A DNA stretch of 64,000 nucleotides from positions 1-64,000 of the forward strand of contig NZ_JASJOO010000006.1 of the NCBI RefSeq assembly GCF_030070105.1, read 5' to 3'. The translations under genes and the position numbers were made by a program. Origin of the DNA: Bermanella sp. WJH001. GTDB taxonomy: Bacteria; Pseudomonadota; Gammaproteobacteria; Pseudomonadales; Oceanobacteraceae. Of this stretch, positions 37,583-45,963 are shown one piece after another (within the stretch, counting starts at the first letter, position 1; every line of letters starts with the position of its first letter). The notes below the pieces were generated by a model. That model had not been told where the DNA came from. It was given only the letters and a program-made list of their open reading frames with translations, and searched no databases.

Positions 37583-38509
37583 TCACTGTTTTACCTGTTC
37601 TAAGCATTGGCAAAATTGTTCTATGATCATTTGGTTTGGGTGACTGCTTCGGTAGATGGCACTGAAGGTATTAATGTACCCATAGCGTTGGCTTAAAAGT
37701 GGTTTTAACTGTTGATCGAGCCCCCAGTTGTTGACCATGTGGGTAGGTAACATCCCTAGATAATGACCACTTAAAATAAGTGTAGCACGGGCTTCTTGGT
37801 GATGGGCTTTAGCGTGTTTTTCCCATTTGAGCATATCAGGGTGCATTTCTCGCCCTGGCATGAGGCGCGGGGATTCTACAAATTTGTACTGCAGAAGTTG
37901 GCTGGGTTTGATTTGCTCATCGTTGATGGCATATAAAGGGTGGCCTTTGGCGCAATAAAGCAGCATTTGTTCATCAAACAAATCAACGCGATTCAGTTCG
38001 TGAAAATTCTGGGTAAGAACCGTGATGCCAATATCTACTTTTTTATCCAACACCGCGGTGATGATTTCATCCGATGACATGGTGCTAATGTGCACGTTAA
38101 CGTCAGGGGCCTGTTTGGAGAACAAGTCCAATGCATTGACGATGCACGAGTCGTGACCGCCGAGCATGTGTTCTGCAAAGCCCAGATGAAGCTGACCAAT
38201 TAAACGGTTGTGGTTATGGTTAATGCGGTTACGAAAGCTATCGAGTGCACCCAGTAAATCCAAGGTGGCATCGTAGACAATTTGACCGTGCAGGGTGAGT
38301 TTAAAGCCACTGCGACCACGTTCACACAAACGCATATCTAAGCGTTTTTCCAGATCAGATATATAGTTAGAGATAGTGGAGTTAGCGAGATTCAGTTGCA
38401 GCTCGGCCGCGGTAAAACCACCGGCTTCAACGACAGATTTAAAGACGCGTAATAGGCGTAAATCAATATCGGCCAATTGGCCTGAAATAGCGGCTTTTTT
38501 ACGCCCCAT
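37583..38509 (-). CDS. LysR-family regulator divergent from gabD
   Basis: The 308-residue LysR protein has a recognisable winged helix (GGFTAAELQLNLANSTISNYISDLEKRL) after a short basic N-terminal extension (MGRKKAAISG). GGAGATCACC precedes the ATG. It diverges from gabD with 135 AT-rich bases between, so it probably regulates gabD and the aminotransferase gene behind it. The effector could be GABA or succinate semialdehyde; no direct evidence. Confidence 0.85.
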   Translation of the reverse strand: MGRKKAAISGQLADIDLRLLRVFKSVVEAGGFTAAELQLNLANSTISNYISDLEKRLDMRLCERGRSGFKLTLHGQIVYDATLDLLGALDSFRNRINHNHNRLIGQLHLGFAEHMLGGHDSCIVNALDLFSKQAPDVNVHISTMSSDEIITAVLDKKVDIGITVLTQNFHELNRVDLFDEQMLLYCAKGHPLYAINDEQIKPSQLLQYKFVESPRLMPGREMHPDMLKWEKHAKAHHQEARATLILSGHYLGMLPTHMVNNWGLDQQLKPLLSQRYGYINTFSAIYRSSHPNQMIIEQFCQCLEQVKQ

Positions 38510-38644
38510 GGTGATCTCCGTGGTGAAATAATTATATTTGTATATTTAAATGTAAAGTCTATTAAATCATTATATAAACAAAAGAAATACTGCTTTATAA
38601 ACCCATTCATAAATGTAAGGGCCTACAGGCCGTAAGGAATTCAC

Positions 38645-40108
38645 ATGAGTATTCAGTTAAACAATCCAAGCCTGCTACAAACTCAAGCGTTCATTGATGG
38701 GCAATGGTGCGATGCCGATAGTGGTAAAACCTTTGCGGTAGTAAACCCTGCAACCGGTGAAACCATTGCTCAGGTAGCAGATGCAGGGCAAGCCGAAACG
38801 TTACGCGCCATTGAAGCCGCTAAAGCAGCCATGCCTGCTTGGAAGGCAGAGCCTGCCAAAGTACGTGCGGCAATCTTAGAAAAATGGCATGACTTAGTCA
38901 TGGCCAACCAAGCAGACTTGGCCAAGCTTATGACCTTAGAGCAAGGTAAAACCCTAGCGGAATCAACCGGTGAAGTGGCTTATGGCGCGTCATTCATCAA
39001 ATGGTTCGCAGAAGAAAGTAAGCGTATTTATGGTGATGTATTACAAGGCACTCCAGATCGTCGTGGCATTGTGATCAAACAGCCAGTTGGTATTGTGGGT
39101 GCGATTACGCCGTGGAATTTTCCAAATGCCATGATCACACGTAAAGCAGCACCGGCTTTGGCCGTAGGGTGTGCCATGGTATTAAAACCAGCAGCAGAAA
39201 CGCCATTGTCGGCTTTAGCATTAGCTGAGTTGGCTAAGCAGGCCGGCTTACCAGCGGGTTTATTTAATGTGGTGGTGGGCACAGACGCCCCAGCCATTGG
39301 TGGTGAGTTAACCTCTAACCCAGATGTGAAAAAAGTCACGTTCACTGGCTCTACCCCTGTGGGTAAGTTGCTCATGAAACAATGCGCGGATACCGTGAAG
39401 CGAACCTCCATGGAGTTAGGTGGCAACGCCCCCGTGATTGTATTTGATGACGCGGATTTAGACGCGGCGGTACAAGGGGCGTTGGTTTCAAAATACCGTA
39501 ACTCAGGGCAAACCTGTATTTGTTCAAATCGTTTAATTGTGCAAGAAGGTATTTACGATGCATTCGTAGAAAAATTCACACAAGCGGTTAATAACTTCAA
39601 CTTTGGTAACGGCTTAGAAGACGGCAGTACTCACGGCCCTGTGATCACAGAAAAAGCCATGAATGATATTCACGCAAAAGTTGAAAGCGCTGTGGCACAA
39701 GGGGCAACCGTTGTGGCTGGTGGTAAACCAAAAGGTGGTAACGGGTATTTTTATGAGCCAACCATTTTGACCAATGTTGATAGCAGCATGCGCGTGTTTC
39801 GTGAAGAAATTTTTGGCCCTGTGGCGCCTATCTTTAAATTTAAAACCGAACAAGAAGCCATTGAAATGGCCAACGATACCGAGTTTGGTTTAGCGGCATA
39901 TTTTTACAGCGAAAACCTTTCTCGTATTTGGCGTGTGGCTGAAAGTATTGATTACGGCATGGTCGGTGTAAACGAAACCGCCATTAGCTCCGAAATCATT
40001 CCGTTTGGTGGCGTAAAGGAATCGGGCCAAGGTCGTGAAGGATCAAAGTACGGACTAGATGATTATTTAGAAGTTAAATACATCTGTATCGGCGGCATTA
40101 ACAAATAA
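38645..40108 (+). CDS. gabD: Succinate-semialdehyde dehydrogenase, NAD(P)+-dependent
   Basis: The 487-residue aldehyde dehydrogenase has TPWNFPNAMITRK, FTGSTPVGKLL, catalytic Glu in MELGGNAP and catalytic Cys in NSGQTCICSNR. It follows GabD of E. coli and Pseudomonas closely and would oxidise succinate semialdehyde to succinate, or glutarate semialdehyde to glutarate if cadaverine is the substrate. AAGGAATTCAC precedes the ATG. The class III aminotransferase gene follows after 83 bases. Confidence 0.92.
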   Translation: MSIQLNNPSLLQTQAFIDGQWCDADSGKTFAVVNPATGETIAQVADAGQAETLRAIEAAKAAMPAWKAEPAKVRAAILEKWHDLVMANQADLAKLMTLEQGKTLAESTGEVAYGASFIKWFAEESKRIYGDVLQGTPDRRGIVIKQPVGIVGAITPWNFPNAMITRKAAPALAVGCAMVLKPAAETPLSALALAELAKQAGLPAGLFNVVVGTDAPAIGGELTSNPDVKKVTFTGSTPVGKLLMKQCADTVKRTSMELGGNAPVIVFDDADLDAAVQGALVSKYRNSGQTCICSNRLIVQEGIYDAFVEKFTQAVNNFNFGNGLEDGSTHGPVITEKAMNDIHAKVESAVAQGATVVAGGKPKGGNGYFYEPTILTNVDSSMRVFREEIFGPVAPIFKFKTEQEAIEMANDTEFGLAAYFYSENLSRIWRVAESIDYGMVGVNETAISSEIIPFGGVKESGQGREGSKYGLDDYLEVKYICIGGINK

Positions 40109-40191
40109 GTTAAGCGTTGAATTATCTTAACGGTAACCGCGCGTGCAGCGTGGTTATCTTTTTAAAACCATGACTGGTTATTGGAAGCATC

Positions 40192-41541
40192 ATGAGCACC
40201 ATCATTTATCCAACCACGAATTTAAAACACACCGAAACCCTGACAGTTGAAAAGGGTGAAGGGGTTTATATTTACGATAACAAAGGCAATAAATACATTG
40301 AGGGTTTAGCGGGCCTTTGGTGCACGTCTTTAGGGTATGGTAATCAAGAAATTATCGACGCAGCAGCTGAACAAATGGGTAAGTTATCTTATTCACATAT
40401 GTTTGGTGGTAAAACCCATCAAGTGGGCATGGACTTGTCTGAAAAAATTTCAGCCATGGTGCCAGTAGATAACGCCAAAGTATTTTTTGGTAACTCAGGC
40501 AGTGACGCAAACGACAGTCACATTAAAATGCTGCGTTATTATTTTAATGCCATAGGTAAGCCTGAGAAGTTTAAAATCATCGCCCGTGATCGCTCTTATC
40601 ATGGCGTAACGGTGGCCTCTGCATCGTTAACCGGTTTAGCACCAAACCATACCCATTTTGATTTACCCATTGATGCACTTGGAATTTTACGTACTGATGT
40701 ACCGCATTATTACCGTGGTAAGTTAGACGGCGAAAGCGAAGCCCAGTTTGTTGAGCGCATTACTAATAATCTAGAAAATATGATTCTAGAAGAAGGCCCA
40801 GAAACCATCGCCGCTTTTATTGCAGAACCCATTACAGGGGCCAGCGGTGTGATCGTACCGCCTGCGGGTTATTATGAAAAAGTACAAGCCATTTTGGCGA
40901 AGTACGATATTTTATTCTGGGCAGATGAAGTCATCACAGGTTTTGGTCGTACTGGTAACGATTTTGGTTGTACCACCATGGGCATTAAACCGGCCATGAT
41001 GACGCTGGCGAAGCAGTTGTCCTCTGCATACATGCCGATCAGTGCGTCGGTGATTCGCGGTGATATGTATGAAGCCATGATTGAACCATCTAGCCAGGTT
41101 GGAGTGTTTGGCCATGGCTATACTTATTCAGGCCACCCAGTTGCTTGTGCGGTTTCGTTAAAAGTATTAGAGATTTATGAGCGCGATAACATATTTGCAA
41201 AAGCCGCAGACGTTGGTGCTTACCTGCAAAGTGAATTGCAAAAATTTGCAGATCATCCATTAGTGGGTGAGATTCGTGGTGCAGGTATGATTGGCGCCCT
41301 TGAATTGGTAGCGAATAAACACACTGGTCAGCCTTTTGCTGGTGGTGTGATTGGCGGTTACGCTATGCAAGCTTGCCAAAATCACGGCATGATCACGCGC
41401 GCAGTTGCAGGCTCATCATTGGCGTTTTGCCCGCCATTAATTTGTACCAAAGCGCACATTGATGAAATGATGATGAAGTTAGCTAAAGCCCTTGATGATA
41501 CGTTAGCTTATGCGGTTAAAGAGAAACTGCTGGTGGCTTAA
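40192..41541 (+). CDS. Class III aminotransferase, probable GABA/diamine transaminase
   Basis: A 449-residue PLP enzyme with FFGNSGSDANDSHIKMLRYY, WADEVITGFGRTGNDFGC and Schiff-base Lys274 in TLAKQLSSAYMP. It belongs to the omega-amino-acid:pyruvate group rather than to classical E. coli GabT. Its place behind gabD makes GABA or 5-aminovalerate transamination the likely role. It resembles SpuC in this window but is clearly a different subfamily. Confidence 0.85.
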   Translation: MSTIIYPTTNLKHTETLTVEKGEGVYIYDNKGNKYIEGLAGLWCTSLGYGNQEIIDAAAEQMGKLSYSHMFGGKTHQVGMDLSEKISAMVPVDNAKVFFGNSGSDANDSHIKMLRYYFNAIGKPEKFKIIARDRSYHGVTVASASLTGLAPNHTHFDLPIDALGILRTDVPHYYRGKLDGESEAQFVERITNNLENMILEEGPETIAAFIAEPITGASGVIVPPAGYYEKVQAILAKYDILFWADEVITGFGRTGNDFGCTTMGIKPAMMTLAKQLSSAYMPISASVIRGDMYEAMIEPSSQVGVFGHGYTYSGHPVACAVSLKVLEIYERDNIFAKAADVGAYLQSELQKFADHPLVGEIRGAGMIGALELVANKHTGQPFAGGVIGGYAMQACQNHGMITRAVAGSSLAFCPPLICTKAHIDEMMMKLAKALDDTLAYAVKEKLLVA

Positions 41542-41830: not shown

Positions 41831-42835
41831 TTAAGCTTTCTCAATGCTCATATAAACCAATGTTTGGTTAAGTAGCTGGTAAGCAATTTCACCAAAAGTG
41901 ATCGGACCAGTTAAGCTGCCAGTTTGCTTGCCTTCAAGTTCTGAATATAAGAAATTCAAAATACAGTTACAGCCGTAACTGGCTTTGTCGGTTTCTTGGT
42001 TTTTAATGGCTTGATTAAAGCTGGCAACATAATCCGCAACTGGCGTGGCAAATTGGTATTCAACGTCGGCAAATACGGGAGCGTAAAGTGCGACATCGCC
42101 ACCGTTAACCGCTTGTACAGACACGTTAACATTGATGCCGTTGTAATCAGCCACTAACGGTAAGCGAGTATCGATGCCATTGTTGTTAATGTATTGAGCT
42201 AGGTTAGTTTCAACACCGTCAACCAAACAAGTATCAACACTAAAACCTGTGCTTGGGAAAACAATCTTAGGGCCATTACCTTGCTCAAATAAATTCACAA
42301 TGTGAATGCTCGCCATTTGATCTGCCGGTAATGGAACATGCATAGCAACGGCTTTGTCGGCCATGGCCATGGCACCTGGGCCAAATACTGTTTTCGCTTG
42401 GTGTGTGTCTACATCATCTAAATGCACACCTGCAACCCAACCAATTAATGGTGAGAAAAACATATTAGGAAAGCTAGGTGCATTTTGGGCGTATTCAGCA
42501 TGTACATCACTACCTGCCGGTAAAATTGTAATGGTAAAACCGTTATCCGGTGCATCTTGTGCAATACGTGAAATAGACTTGCTATCGTATGGTGTGATGC
42601 GTGGTTGAGTATTACCACTTAAACCTTCGATGGCGTTCACGAAGATTTTATCTTTACTAACCAAACCACCGTTTTCACTCATAAAGTAAGGGATGGTACC
42701 ACCAATCCAGTTACCACTTGGTAATTGTGATAATAACGATTCATCGGCAGCGATAATTAAAAAATCACCGGATTCAATACGATCAATGGTGCTGTCTAAA
42801 TCTAGTAGTTGGCTCGTAATATTGACGTTTGACAT
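41831..42835 (-). CDS. Unknown protein with FIST_C-like C-terminus
   Basis: A soluble protein of 334 residues, no signal peptide or membrane segment. The C-terminal 50 residues contain a Cys-x-Cys (GCNCILNFL, residues 289-291), then GPITFGEIAYQLLNQTLVYMS, which resembles the end of FIST_C sensory domains (GE-x-n-NQTL). I recall similar proteins being annotated DUF6976, but did not verify this. It lies 23 bases downstream of the three-repeat gene on the same strand and is surely in one operon with it. Function unknown; a ligand-sensing role is a guess. Confidence 0.7.
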   Translation of the reverse strand: MSNVNITSQLLDLDSTIDRIESGDFLIIAADESLLSQLPSGNWIGGTIPYFMSENGGLVSKDKIFVNAIEGLSGNTQPRITPYDSKSISRIAQDAPDNGFTITILPAGSDVHAEYAQNAPSFPNMFFSPLIGWVAGVHLDDVDTHQAKTVFGPGAMAMADKAVAMHVPLPADQMASIHIVNLFEQGNGPKIVFPSTGFSVDTCLVDGVETNLAQYINNNGIDTRLPLVADYNGINVNVSVQAVNGGDVALYAPVFADVEYQFATPVADYVASFNQAIKNQETDKASYGCNCILNFLYSELEGKQTGSLTGPITFGEIAYQLLNQTLVYMSIEKA

Positions 42836-42858
42836 ATACTTCTCTTAATTCGTGTAGA

Positions 42859-44079
42859 TCAACTAGCCATGGCTAGATGTTGTTCAATTTGTTTAATTTC
42901 ATTGTTCAATGAGCGTAAATTACGAACGAAATACTGTTGAATCATTTCACGTGCTTCATTGTCATCTTCTGTTGTACGGGCTTTAACTAATAATAGTTTT
43001 AAAGCCATTTGACCCGATTCAATAAATACCTTGCCTTGAATAATGTCACCCCAAATTGAGTGATCACTTTCAGGTAATTCTAAATCATTATTTTGCTCAT
43101 TAAGTTGGCGTACCATTTTTGAAATAGACAATAACTCCGGCTTAAGTTTCGCCATGTTCTTTTTCAAATAAGATAAAAGTTCTTTAGAAATTTGAAAGCG
43201 TTCATCTTGGCTAATATCGTTTTTACGATATAAGTTTTTAAGTTGAGCAATGTATAAACTCAAACCTGTATTTTTTGACAGTAAATCCACTTCACCACTT
43301 AAGATGCTATGCCAAATTGGATGATCAACAGTCAACGTGACTTTTTTATTATGACCGGCTTGAGCGTTGGCCTGCTCGTTGGCGGCAACTGGCTTCGCTT
43401 CAATTACACCAATTTGAGCGTACTCACTTTTTAGCTGAGAACGATTTTTGATGAAAAACTGACGTAGTGTTGCAACCGAGTCTTGCATAACACTCGCATC
43501 GTCTTTGCTGTTAAAACACGATAGCTCTAGGCGTGATAATAAGAACTTCAATGACGGTAAATTAGTTTTAAAACTAATTTCGTGTTTGATGATACCGCGC
43601 CAAATTGGGTCCGTTTGTAACGGCAGTTGGCTTTGTACCTGGCTTTCTTGTTGTTCAGTTTGATTATCAGAAATAATCTGGCTGACCAATGTGCGGTCAA
43701 TTCCCGTTAAGCTGTGAATGGTATCTGAGCTTAATTGCTTGCTGGCGGCCAGCAACACCGTTTGTTGTAATTGATATGTGTATTTGCTGTGCTCAGGACC
43801 AATAAACGCAGGAGGGTTTAATGTTCTGTGTTTAGAAAACGTTTGGTGCGAAGCTTGCATTTCAATGATGGTATCAAAGCGACCGGTTTTTATATGGTGC
43901 CAACGAACTTTTTGAGTTCGCTGTTTAGTGGCACTAAACAAGCCCCTTGATTTGTTGACCATTTCTTCGATTTGAATTTCAAGAACTTCGTTCTCTAAAT
44001 TCATGGTCATATCTTTTATTCGAAAAGGGGGGTAAATCCCCATAATCTGTTCCACTTCTCGCCGATTTAAGCGTTCCAT
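42859..44079 (-). CDS. Unknown protein with three tandem ~65-residue repeats
   Basis: A 406-residue soluble protein in two parts. Residues 157-223, 253-319 and 340-399 are three diverged copies of one unit: an IW(R/H/G)xII start, a hydrophobic LK(F/Y)LL-type helix, and an R/K-rich helix ending in a LKxE-x-x-I pattern. Residues 1-140 end in a helical segment (LSSDTIHSLTGIDRTLVSQII) that looks like a helix-turn-helix; with the preceding KVRWHHIKTGRFDTIIE it recalls the N-terminal region of ISL3 transposases, but without zinc-binding Cys. No transposase catalytic domain is present. It diverges from the aldehyde dehydrogenase fusion gene and may regulate it. Function unknown. Confidence 0.7.
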   Translation of the reverse strand: MERLNRREVEQIMGIYPPFRIKDMTMNLENEVLEIQIEEMVNKSRGLFSATKQRTQKVRWHHIKTGRFDTIIEMQASHQTFSKHRTLNPPAFIGPEHSKYTYQLQQTVLLAASKQLSSDTIHSLTGIDRTLVSQIISDNQTEQQESQVQSQLPLQTDPIWRGIIKHEISFKTNLPSLKFLLSRLELSCFNSKDDASVMQDSVATLRQFFIKNRSQLKSEYAQIGVIEAKPVAANEQANAQAGHNKKVTLTVDHPIWHSILSGEVDLLSKNTGLSLYIAQLKNLYRKNDISQDERFQISKELLSYLKKNMAKLKPELLSISKMVRQLNEQNNDLELPESDHSIWGDIIQGKVFIESGQMALKLLLVKARTTEDDNEAREMIQQYFVRNLRSLNNEIKQIEQHLAMAS

Positions 44080-44130
44080 CTGACCTTCCTAGTTGAGAAT
44101 ATTTACTATTCATTATTCTTTTTATTTATG

Positions 44131-44195
44131 AGAACCAATTCTAATCTAATGAATTGTTCTGACAAGTGTTTTGTGATTATATTGTCTAAGACAAT
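44131..44195. promoter_or_regulatory. Inverted repeats between divergent unknown gene and aldehyde dehydrogenase fusion
   Basis: Two symmetric elements: AGAACCAATTC (44131-44141) with GAATTGTTCT (44151-44160), one bulged base; and the perfect 15-base palindrome ATTGTCT-A-AGACAAT (44181-44195). Both lie in the region that must carry the two divergent promoters and are candidate regulator sites. Confidence 0.5.
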
Positions 44196-44226
44196 TAGAG
44201 CCACCGCTCAACCTAAGGAAGGAAAG

Positions 44227-45963
44227 ATGGAAATGGTAGATTTACGCCCAAGTTTGGATCAATTAAATGGACTCACGCACAAAAAAGCGGCAGCTGGCGA
44301 GTGTCTTTTGGCACAAAATAGTAAGCCCTCACATTGTTTTTATATTTTAAGTGGGCAAGCTCACTTAGAAGTACATGATAAAGAGCTCGATCGAAAAGCA
44401 AGGTTATCCACCACTTTTACAACAGGTGACTGCATTGGCGCTAAAGAATTATTAAGCGATCAAGCGTGTATGCATAATGTGATTGCCGATAATGACATTG
44501 AATACATTACATTAACGTTACCTGAGCTCAGAAAATTATTATTAGATGAGCCTAATTTTTACTCATTAATCCTACAAACGCTTAGTAAGCAAATGAATGT
44601 AGCCCTTCAAAATGAAGCGGATATGGCGTTAAACCAAGCACCAATTAAAGAAGTTGAGTTTATTGTTAGTGGAGCAAACGCGGCTCACGAAGCGATTCAA
44701 AACCTACCAGAAAACGCAATTGACGATGCCATTATGGCGGTGGCTAACGCGGTAAATGATCAAGCTGATAATCTAGCCAAGTTGACCGTATTAGAAAGCG
44801 GCATGGGTGTGCTTGAACATAAAATTCAAAAAATAAAACTGGGTACCGTAGCTGTTGCACAAGGCCTACAAGGTAAACCTGGTGTCGGTAGTGTGATTGA
44901 ACAAAAAGACGGCAGCACAGGCCTAGCAAATAGCATGGGTGTTGTGTTTGCCATGATTCCTGTGACAAACCCAGTGGAAACGTTAACCTTTAAATTTTTA
45001 ATCGCGCTCAAATCACGTAATGCCATTATTATTAGCAGTCACCGTAAAGCGAAAAATGTTGGTAATCAAACAGTTGAAATTATTCAAAACGTATTAAAAC
45101 AATTAGATTTACCGGTTAACTTAATTCAAACCGCTCAACAGCCTTCATCTCGTGCATTAACGCAAGCATTTATGACCCATGACGATGTGCACTTTATTTT
45201 AGCCACAGGTGGCCCTTCGATGGTGAAATCGGCCTACCAATCAGGCACCCCCGCTATTGGTGTGGGTAAAGGCAATGCACCTGTATGGATTGAAAAAACA
45301 TGTGACGTTAAAAAAGCCGCTGACGATGTGGTGTTTAGTAAAAGCTTTGATAACGGCATTGTTTGCGGCTCAGAAAATAACTTGTTAGTTGATGCGGATA
45401 TTTATGACGACTTTTTAACCCATGCACAAAACGCAGGGGCCGCGGTTTTTAATGACTTTGAAATACACGCATTACTTGAAGTGGTTTTCCATGACGATCA
45501 TTTAGACAGCCGTTTTGTGGGTAAAAGTGCTCAAGATGTATGTGATGAACTAGGCATCAAACGTGATTATCCAATTAAACTGATATTGGCCGAAACCCAA
45601 GGGCAGCCTGAAAATACACCATTGCTTAAAGAAAAATTATTGCCGGTATTATCTGTGACCAAGATTCACAATGATGACCAAGCCATGAGCTTAGCTAAAG
45701 CAATTTTAGCCGATGAAGGGGCGGGTCACACGGCAATCATACACAGTAATAACGAGCAGTTAGTGAAAGCGTATGCACAATGTGCCGATGTGAGTCGGGT
45801 GTTAGTTAATGGTGCCGGCACACTTGGTTGTATCGGTGCGAATAATGGCCTTCAACTTTCTTGGACATTAGGTTGTGGCACACAAGGTGGCGGCGCCACC
45901 AGTGATAACGTCAGTTATGAGCACTTGTTAAATATTAAACGTATTGCTTACGCACAGAACTAA
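44227..45963 (+). CDS. Cyclic-nucleotide-binding-like domain fused to CoA-acylating aldehyde dehydrogenase
   Basis: The 578-residue protein joins two domains. Residues about 7-120 form a cNMP-binding-like beta-roll (FYILSGQAHLEVHD, GDCIGAKELLSD); the phosphate-cassette Arg of true cAMP receptors is not evident, so binding of cAMP is uncertain. Residues about 150-578 match the N-terminal acylating aldehyde dehydrogenase of AdhE: LESGMGVLEHKI, PVTNPVETL, ILATGGPSMVKSAY, and catalytic Cys380 in FDNGIVCGSE. It would interconvert an aldehyde with its acyl-CoA. No alcohol dehydrogenase part is present. The ATG follows AAGGAAGGAAAG; an ATG at 44128 would add 33 poorly conserved residues across the palindromes and is rejected. 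Confidence 0.85.
   Translation: MEMVDLRPSLDQLNGLTHKKAAAGECLLAQNSKPSHCFYILSGQAHLEVHDKELDRKARLSTTFTTGDCIGAKELLSDQACMHNVIADNDIEYITLTLPELRKLLLDEPNFYSLILQTLSKQMNVALQNEADMALNQAPIKEVEFIVSGANAAHEAIQNLPENAIDDAIMAVANAVNDQADNLAKLTVLESGMGVLEHKIQKIKLGTVAVAQGLQGKPGVGSVIEQKDGSTGLANSMGVVFAMIPVTNPVETLTFKFLIALKSRNAIIISSHRKAKNVGNQTVEIIQNVLKQLDLPVNLIQTAQQPSSRALTQAFMTHDDVHFILATGGPSMVKSAYQSGTPAIGVGKGNAPVWIEKTCDVKKAADDVVFSKSFDNGIVCGSENNLLVDADIYDDFLTHAQNAGAAVFNDFEIHALLEVVFHDDHLDSRFVGKSAQDVCDELGIKRDYPIKLILAETQGQPENTPLLKEKLLPVLSVTKIHNDDQAMSLAKAILADEGAGHTAIIHSNNEQLVKAYAQCADVSRVLVNGAGTLGCIGANNGLQLSWTLGCGTQGGGATSDNVSYEHLLNIKRIAYAQN

Follow-up and report, generated by a model that had tools for sequence, protein, structure and literature searches.

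A DUF6976 gene pair and its divergent acylating aldehyde dehydrogenase gene in Bermanella sp. WJH001

Architecture of the divergent locus

The stretch of DNA analysed here (the window) comprises 64,000 nucleotides of Bermanella sp. WJH001 (GCF_030070105.1, contig NZ_JASJOO010000006.1, positions 1-64,000, forward strand). It carries three open reading frames (ORFs), each present where an initial annotation of this DNA had placed it. Two form an operon on the minus strand (41831-44079) and encode a protein termed here B and a member of the family DUF6976, while the third lies divergently on the plus strand and encodes a fusion of a cyclic nucleoside monophosphate (cNMP)-binding-like domain to an acylating aldehyde dehydrogenase (ALDH). 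B and DUF6976 constitute a widespread and apparently undescribed gene pair of signalling type, which in several lineages adjoins genes for the handling of acetaldehyde or alcohol.

The DUF6976 protein (41831-42835, minus strand; 334 amino acids) matches Pfam PF22396 over profile positions 2-321 of 321 (E 4.6e-139, 463.2 bits, over the cut-off). Its predicted model, with a predicted local distance difference test (pLDDT) score of 92, adopts the FIST fold, the best matches in the Protein Data Bank (PDB) being FBXO22 (three chains, Foldseek probability 0.92-0.97), followed by chorismatase and cyanuric acid hydrolase. One study assigns the FIST domain of FBXO22 to the same fold as chorismatases and cyanuric acid hydrolases (PMC11185555). 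FBXO22 is the closest solved fold to DUF6976, but it is a eukaryotic F-box substrate receptor and the two share 9-10% identity. The Pfam FIST models do not match the protein (DUF6976 alone is found at E <= 1), FIST_C has no matches in the Bermanella genome, and a sequence-only search of solved structures returned two rows at the level of chance (E 0.27 and 0.64). Alignment with the FIST profile by hhalign gave a probability of 9.7 and E 0.0033 over the C-terminal 90 columns, and by eye the C-terminal CxC, TxGE and NQT residues line up with those of NosP. His112, Cys289 and Cys291 are near-invariant, and His112 and the CxC motif are conserved among DUF6976 relatives. No paper was found under DUF6976 or PF22396 in a literature search whose coverage excluded most subscription papers and bioRxiv.

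The initial annotation could assign neither operon protein; one is now placed in DUF6976, whereas B (42859-44079, minus strand; 406 amino acids) still matches no Pfam family over the cut-off. Residues 1-149 (43633-44079) comprise a beta-rich part and a helix-turn-helix (HTH; residues about 103-149, nucleotides 43633-43773). The remainder consists of three tandem copies of a domain of about 72 amino acids, the partner domain, at residues 152-223 (43411-43626), 251-321 (43117-43329) and 334-399 (42883-43080), scoring 34.3, 27.5 and 24.1 bits, respectively, with a home-made hidden Markov model (HMM) trained on 41 stand-alone small proteins (E 2.0e-24 for B as a whole). No Pfam family was found for this domain. 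The N-terminus of B resembles ISL3 transposases weakly (NCBIfam, E 0.012), and neither Zn_ribbon_ISL3 nor HTH_Tnp_ISL3 appears among its Pfam matches at E <= 1. Relatives at two other loci show an ISL3 zinc ribbon over the cut-off (L158, 28.0 versus 25.5 bits) and weak zinc-ribbon and HTH matches (L155). The family differs from ISL3 transposases in that the Pfam matches include no catalytic transposase domain, and the B protein of the window falls below every cut-off. The predicted model of B has a pLDDT of 78 and a predicted template modelling score of 0.41.

The fusion gene (44227-45963, plus strand) encodes 578 amino acids when read from the ATG at 44227, which is directly preceded by the Shine-Dalgarno-like AAGGAAAG; an alternative ORF of 611 amino acids from 44128 is mechanically possible. 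Both halves of the architecture proposed in the initial annotation are borne out, since Pfam recognizes cNMP_binding (PF00027; 44284-44541; 35.0 bits, cut-off 27.5) and Aldedh (89.3 bits, cut-off 23) in the 611-residue form, and NCBIfam places the ALDH part (44632-45951) near AdhE (399 bits, cut-off 951) and acetylating acetaldehyde dehydrogenase (360 bits, cut-off 620), below both equivalog cut-offs. The ALDH part aligns lengthwise with 8cei, an acetylating succinate-semialdehyde dehydrogenase, and 5j78, an acetaldehyde dehydrogenase, including the catalytic-cysteine block. The aligned cysteine (residue 380 of the 578-residue form, nucleotides 45364-45366), which we take to be the catalytic residue, is invariant in four fusions. 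The protein thus shares a full ALDH domain and the catalytic-cysteine position with AdhE/EutE-type enzymes, but it lacks the iron-type alcohol dehydrogenase (Fe-ADH) half and bears an N-terminal cNMP-like domain instead. Its own genome holds two further matches to the fusion; at E 2e-6 and 6e-5 they are weak, and no second acylating enzyme of its kind is seen there.

The phosphate cassette of cNMP-binding domains carries a Glu and an Arg in its consensus. The cassette of the window was said to lack the usual Arg, and indeed it lacks the Glu as well; it is degenerate among relatives too, a Gynuella fusion (L049), in which the Arg is kept at a usual spacing, being a partial exception. At E 0.01 phmmer retrieved no PDB sequence when given just the cNMP-like part of the window, although a four-row profile found some. 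The same part weakly matches PADLOC models of TIR effectors (E 7.2e-6), presumably through their cyclic-nucleotide-binding part. No paper pairing a cNMP-binding domain with an acylating or acetaldehyde dehydrogenase was found, most subscription papers and bioRxiv again lying outside the coverage.

Between the divergent genes lies a region of 147 bases (44080-44226), the length first reported. Within it 44121-44180 is conserved, with 47 of 60 alignment columns identical across the window and loci L053, L054 and L047. The last belongs to a more distant congener whose three proteins are 57-68% identical to those of the window, and the retention of these columns even there makes a shared control region plausible. 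The region looks regulatory on the strength of this conserved block, not of the two inverted repeats put forward as control elements in the initial annotation. The longer repeat, of 15 nucleotides (44076-44090/44216-44230), consists of near-identical Shine-Dalgarno and start regions facing each other, and the 11-nucleotide repeat was equalled in 19 of 200 dinucleotide shuffles; as regulatory sites they are rejected or unproven. A motif like TGTGACGCRCRTCTATAA occurs in divergent regions of Reinekea (G162:C12:295995, G564:C5:599005, G565:C12:51136 and others), and genome G565 holds several TGTGATG..CGTCTAAAA variants, not above a reversed-pattern control. An operator was sought in three genomes with an 18-base motif chosen by eye from these Reinekea regions, at up to three mismatches. 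The motif was counted 8, 3 and 15 times and its reversed pattern 7, 8 and 13 times; a shared operator was therefore dropped and none is claimed.

Distribution of the pair

The initial annotation proposed an undescribed system with the fusion at its heart. The linkage of the three genes stands, but the pair extends far beyond the fusion. Among the best 80 of 184 DUF6976 stretches, on which all locus counts given here are based, the partner domain is encoded directly upstream of DUF6976 in 78, either alone, in three copies or fused to other domains; in the remaining two the contig starts at the DUF6976 gene. Only 37 of the 78 finds are independent, the other 41 loci having supplied the training set of the HMM. 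The gap between the two genes has a median of 17 nucleotides and is 50 or fewer in 68 of 78 loci. The 80 loci span 11 bacterial phyla and one archaeal metagenome-assembled genome (MAG), as judged from record names.

In an order-level sample of 194 genomes, matches spanning the cNMP-like part occur in four, and B occurs in the same four. Another 33 genomes of the order have a match at E 1e-40 that begins only at residue 152 of the 611-residue form and thus covers the ALDH part. DUF6976 is found in six of the 194, in one of them (G093:C1:2205174-2205837; L038, L040, L041) as pieces in different frames, probably a decayed copy. Among 369 genomes of a class-level sample the full fusion is confined to that of the window. 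The fusion therefore travels with the two other genes, as had been suggested, and does not occur mostly without them. The core is the B-DUF6976 operon pair and the fusion is a lineage-specific add-on, because the pair is much wider and another acetaldehyde dehydrogenase stands in the place of the fusion in some relatives.

The partner domain varies from one to five copies per protein (five in L155, four in L158; tree labels tag both as 'ISL3_1copy', and tag L055 and L117 as 'alone' though in both the contig ends within the upstream gene). In Treponema MAGs it is fused to hemerythrin (L132:9330-9986, by Pfam) and to a receiver-like N-terminus (L130:9356-9985, by eye). A second partner-domain gene lies about 0.4 kb upstream of DUF6976 on the opposite strand in L119 (9293-9565, minus strand; E 2.3e-7), and no DUF6976 accompanying this second gene was seen. 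Gynuella carries two tandem B-DUF6976 pairs (L048:6237-10973, on the L066 contig) and its fusion gene on another contig (L049). A role in anti-phage defence was considered and rejected, PADLOC giving nothing for DUF6976, B or the partner of L097, only E 0.028 for the partner of L121, and a match to the fusion only via its cNMP-like part. A tblastn search with DUF6976 found no phage record and three of 72,556 plasmid records.

Aldehyde, alcohol and PQQ genes beside the pair

Three-copy loci account for 15 of the 80. The fusion gene is divergent and adjacent in seven of these (L053, L054, L056, L058, L059, L060 and L081) and takes the same slot in the window and in genome G075. At three loci of Cellvibrionaceae type (L061, L064 and L065) the slot is held by an MhpF-type acetaldehyde dehydrogenase (PF09290 by Pfam, with PRK08300 over the cut-off for L061 and L064). 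By family names MhpF/DmpF-type enzymes catalyse the same acetylating reaction, but they belong to an unrelated family, and Pfam finds no cNMP-like domain in those of this slot. In the tree a single three-copy clade (support 100/100) contains two subclades (100/97 and 100/90), in which the loci of Cellvibrionaceae type and those with the fusion are placed; L062 belongs to neither. The strongest pointer to function is that one acetaldehyde dehydrogenase is replaced at this divergent position by another, of unrelated family. Neither enzyme occupies the slot in L062 or L066, whose fusions lie elsewhere in the genome. The contig breaks off on the upstream side in L057, L063 and L067; in the last an ExaC-like ALDH (best NCBIfam match ExaC, 801 bits, cut-off 900) lies just downstream of DUF6976.

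Homologues of pqqB, pqqC and pqqE, genes of pyrroloquinoline quinone (PQQ), lie less than 4 kb from the pair in six of the 80 loci. Five belong to an Azonexus-like clade and have pqqB and pqqC upstream and pqqE downstream, all on the strand opposite the pair; the other six rows of this 11-row clade have none of the three within reach. In L094 pqqB, pqqC, pqqE, partner and DUF6976 follow one another on one strand. NCBIfam confirmed the three families, all over the cut-off, in L082, the sole locus checked. An Fe-ADH gene follows the pair in L083 and stands beside it on a Sphaerotilus plasmid, and a class III alcohol dehydrogenase gene follows it in Reinekea forsetii (L058).

One of eight query families of aldehyde, alcohol or PQQ genes occurs within 4 kb of the pair in 18 of the 80 loci. 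The near and far bases searched for these families amount to 550,527 and 641,545, with far hits in L102, L066 and L056, a tally that is circular because the query families came from the neighbours themselves. A domain survey of neighbours used ORFs from our own ORF caller, which is noisy in high-GC contigs. Fifty-two loci representing the 80 gave 166 proximal ORFs, of which 142 entered the sample and 123 were scanned, 19 having been set aside by hand because they belonged to the second pair of Gynuella or were considered spurious or overlong. Two more of the 166, of known identity but outside that sample (L065:7288-8274 and L083:3095-4276), were added by hand, giving 125. The distal set comprised 271 ORFs, of which 147 entered the sample and 123 were scanned. 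Among the 125 proximal proteins, Aldedh was found in five and AcetDehyd-dimer in three, the latter count including the hand-added L065. The listing of 25 out of 168 distal families includes neither of the two but may hide single-member families, and the distal set does contain an AdhE piece (L066). We treat the survey as a lead and not as a test.

At the locus itself, the region beyond the operon (37583-41541) encodes a divergent LysR-type gene (37583-38509), a semialdehyde dehydrogenase (38645-40108) and a class III aminotransferase (40192-41541), and resembles a conventional set of genes for amine catabolism.

A possible sensory module and its alternatives

The reading we tentatively prefer, with slightly less than even confidence, is that B and DUF6976 form a FIST-like two-protein sensory or regulatory module, which here controls or tunes the divergent acetaldehyde dehydrogenase. 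It builds on the observed gene pair, its folds and families, their co-occurrence and the repeated proximity to acetaldehyde and alcohol genes. DUF6976 would act as a FIST-fold signal receiver working with the co-encoded partner domain, present in three copies in B. The pair may act on the 147-bp region, given that the partner here carries a transposase-like HTH head; in this lineage that head would bind and read the shared DNA. Expression of the divergent enzyme, with acetaldehyde as its putative substrate, would in this way be adjusted, in whichever direction the control may run, to a small signal, the candidate ligands being an aldehyde, a redox cue or a nitric oxide (NO)-like molecule. A second point of control or docking might be supplied by the enzyme's own cNMP-like domain, degenerate as it is.

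A FIST protein close to alcohol-oxidation and PQQ genes has a precedent. According to one report, nosP (PA1975), nahK/ercS', erbR, pqqD and ercA of P. aeruginosa are counterparts of genes in the ped alcohol-oxidation cluster of P. putida (PMC12997753). NosP proteins are described, in another, as FIST proteins that bind heme and NO and serve as auxiliary sensors controlling signalling kinases (PMC12570481). The NosP-NahK/NosK systems share with the present pair the FIST fold and the encoding of a small sensor beside its partner, but DUF6976 escapes the Pfam FIST models and is partnered by a helical domain in place of a histidine kinase.

None of the eight families tested lies within 4 kb in 62 of the 80 loci. 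A PQQ alcohol dehydrogenase was found at E 1e-50 in none of 13 B-carrying genomes, which counts against a single ethanol theme; PQQ-linked ethanol oxidation as a general theme is rejected for this lineage. The first of these counts favours a general signalling module, in which DUF6976 and its partner feed signals of redox, NO or oxygen type to chemosensory or receiver proteins and the aldehyde genes are near by chance or only indirectly connected, an explanation we regard as somewhat unlikely. It gains from the neighbours at several loci: two receiver proteins, CheW, a methyl-accepting chemotaxis protein and a CheA-type kinase after the pair in L155 (Pfam), similar chemosensory genes near it in L071 and L158 and CheR- and CheB-like ORFs after it in L154 (all by eye), CheW near L108, a hemerythrin-GGDEF gene after L096, and response regulator and EAL genes flanking L138. 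The hemerythrin fusion of L132 fits as well, and histidine-kinase ATPase and receiver domains each occur in 4 of the 125 scanned proximal proteins. Such a module would not explain why, in sister-like clades, one divergent slot is filled by acetaldehyde dehydrogenases of two unrelated families, nor why fusion and B occur in the same four of 194 genomes.

Control might alternatively be post-translational or positional, the helical repeats of B and DUF6976 forming a scaffold on which the ALDH docks via its cNMP-like domain. The variable number of partner-domain copies would suit a scaffold, the degenerate cassette suggests that the domain may bind something else, and the FIST domain of FBXO22 is described as binding proteins and having no obvious ligand pocket (PMC11185555). 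Against a protein complex of this kind, which we consider unlikely, stand the HTH in B and the MhpF-type enzymes that fill the slot without a cNMP-like domain, so that docking through it cannot be general. That DUF6976 is itself an enzyme, with a chorismatase- or cyanuric-acid-hydrolase-like fold and some metabolite made nearby as its substrate, is improbable. Mere retention by descent of three genes with unrelated jobs would agree with the restriction of the trio to a few genera; it is hard to square with the adjacency of the pair in 78 of 80 loci across 11 bacterial phyla and with the replacement of the divergent dehydrogenase by an unrelated family, and seems highly improbable.

The sensory module preferred here may be one instance of something broader, a possibility that we consider less likely than not: DUF6976 and its helical partner could be a widespread undescribed cytosolic sensing cassette, a FIST-fold receiver with a repeat adaptor, whose outputs vary from an HTH head beside acetaldehyde dehydrogenases or pqq genes to hemerythrin or receiver domains and chemosensory arrays. 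In marine Bermanella and Reinekea it would control an acetaldehyde dehydrogenase that bears a sensor-like domain of its own. For a widespread and apparently undescribed gene pair there is now a fold (FIST) and a partner family, together with a number of domain fusions and, in acetaldehyde, a metabolic lead, which makes its function directly testable. If the proposal is true, FIST-type sensing would extend beyond the kinase-linked NosP.

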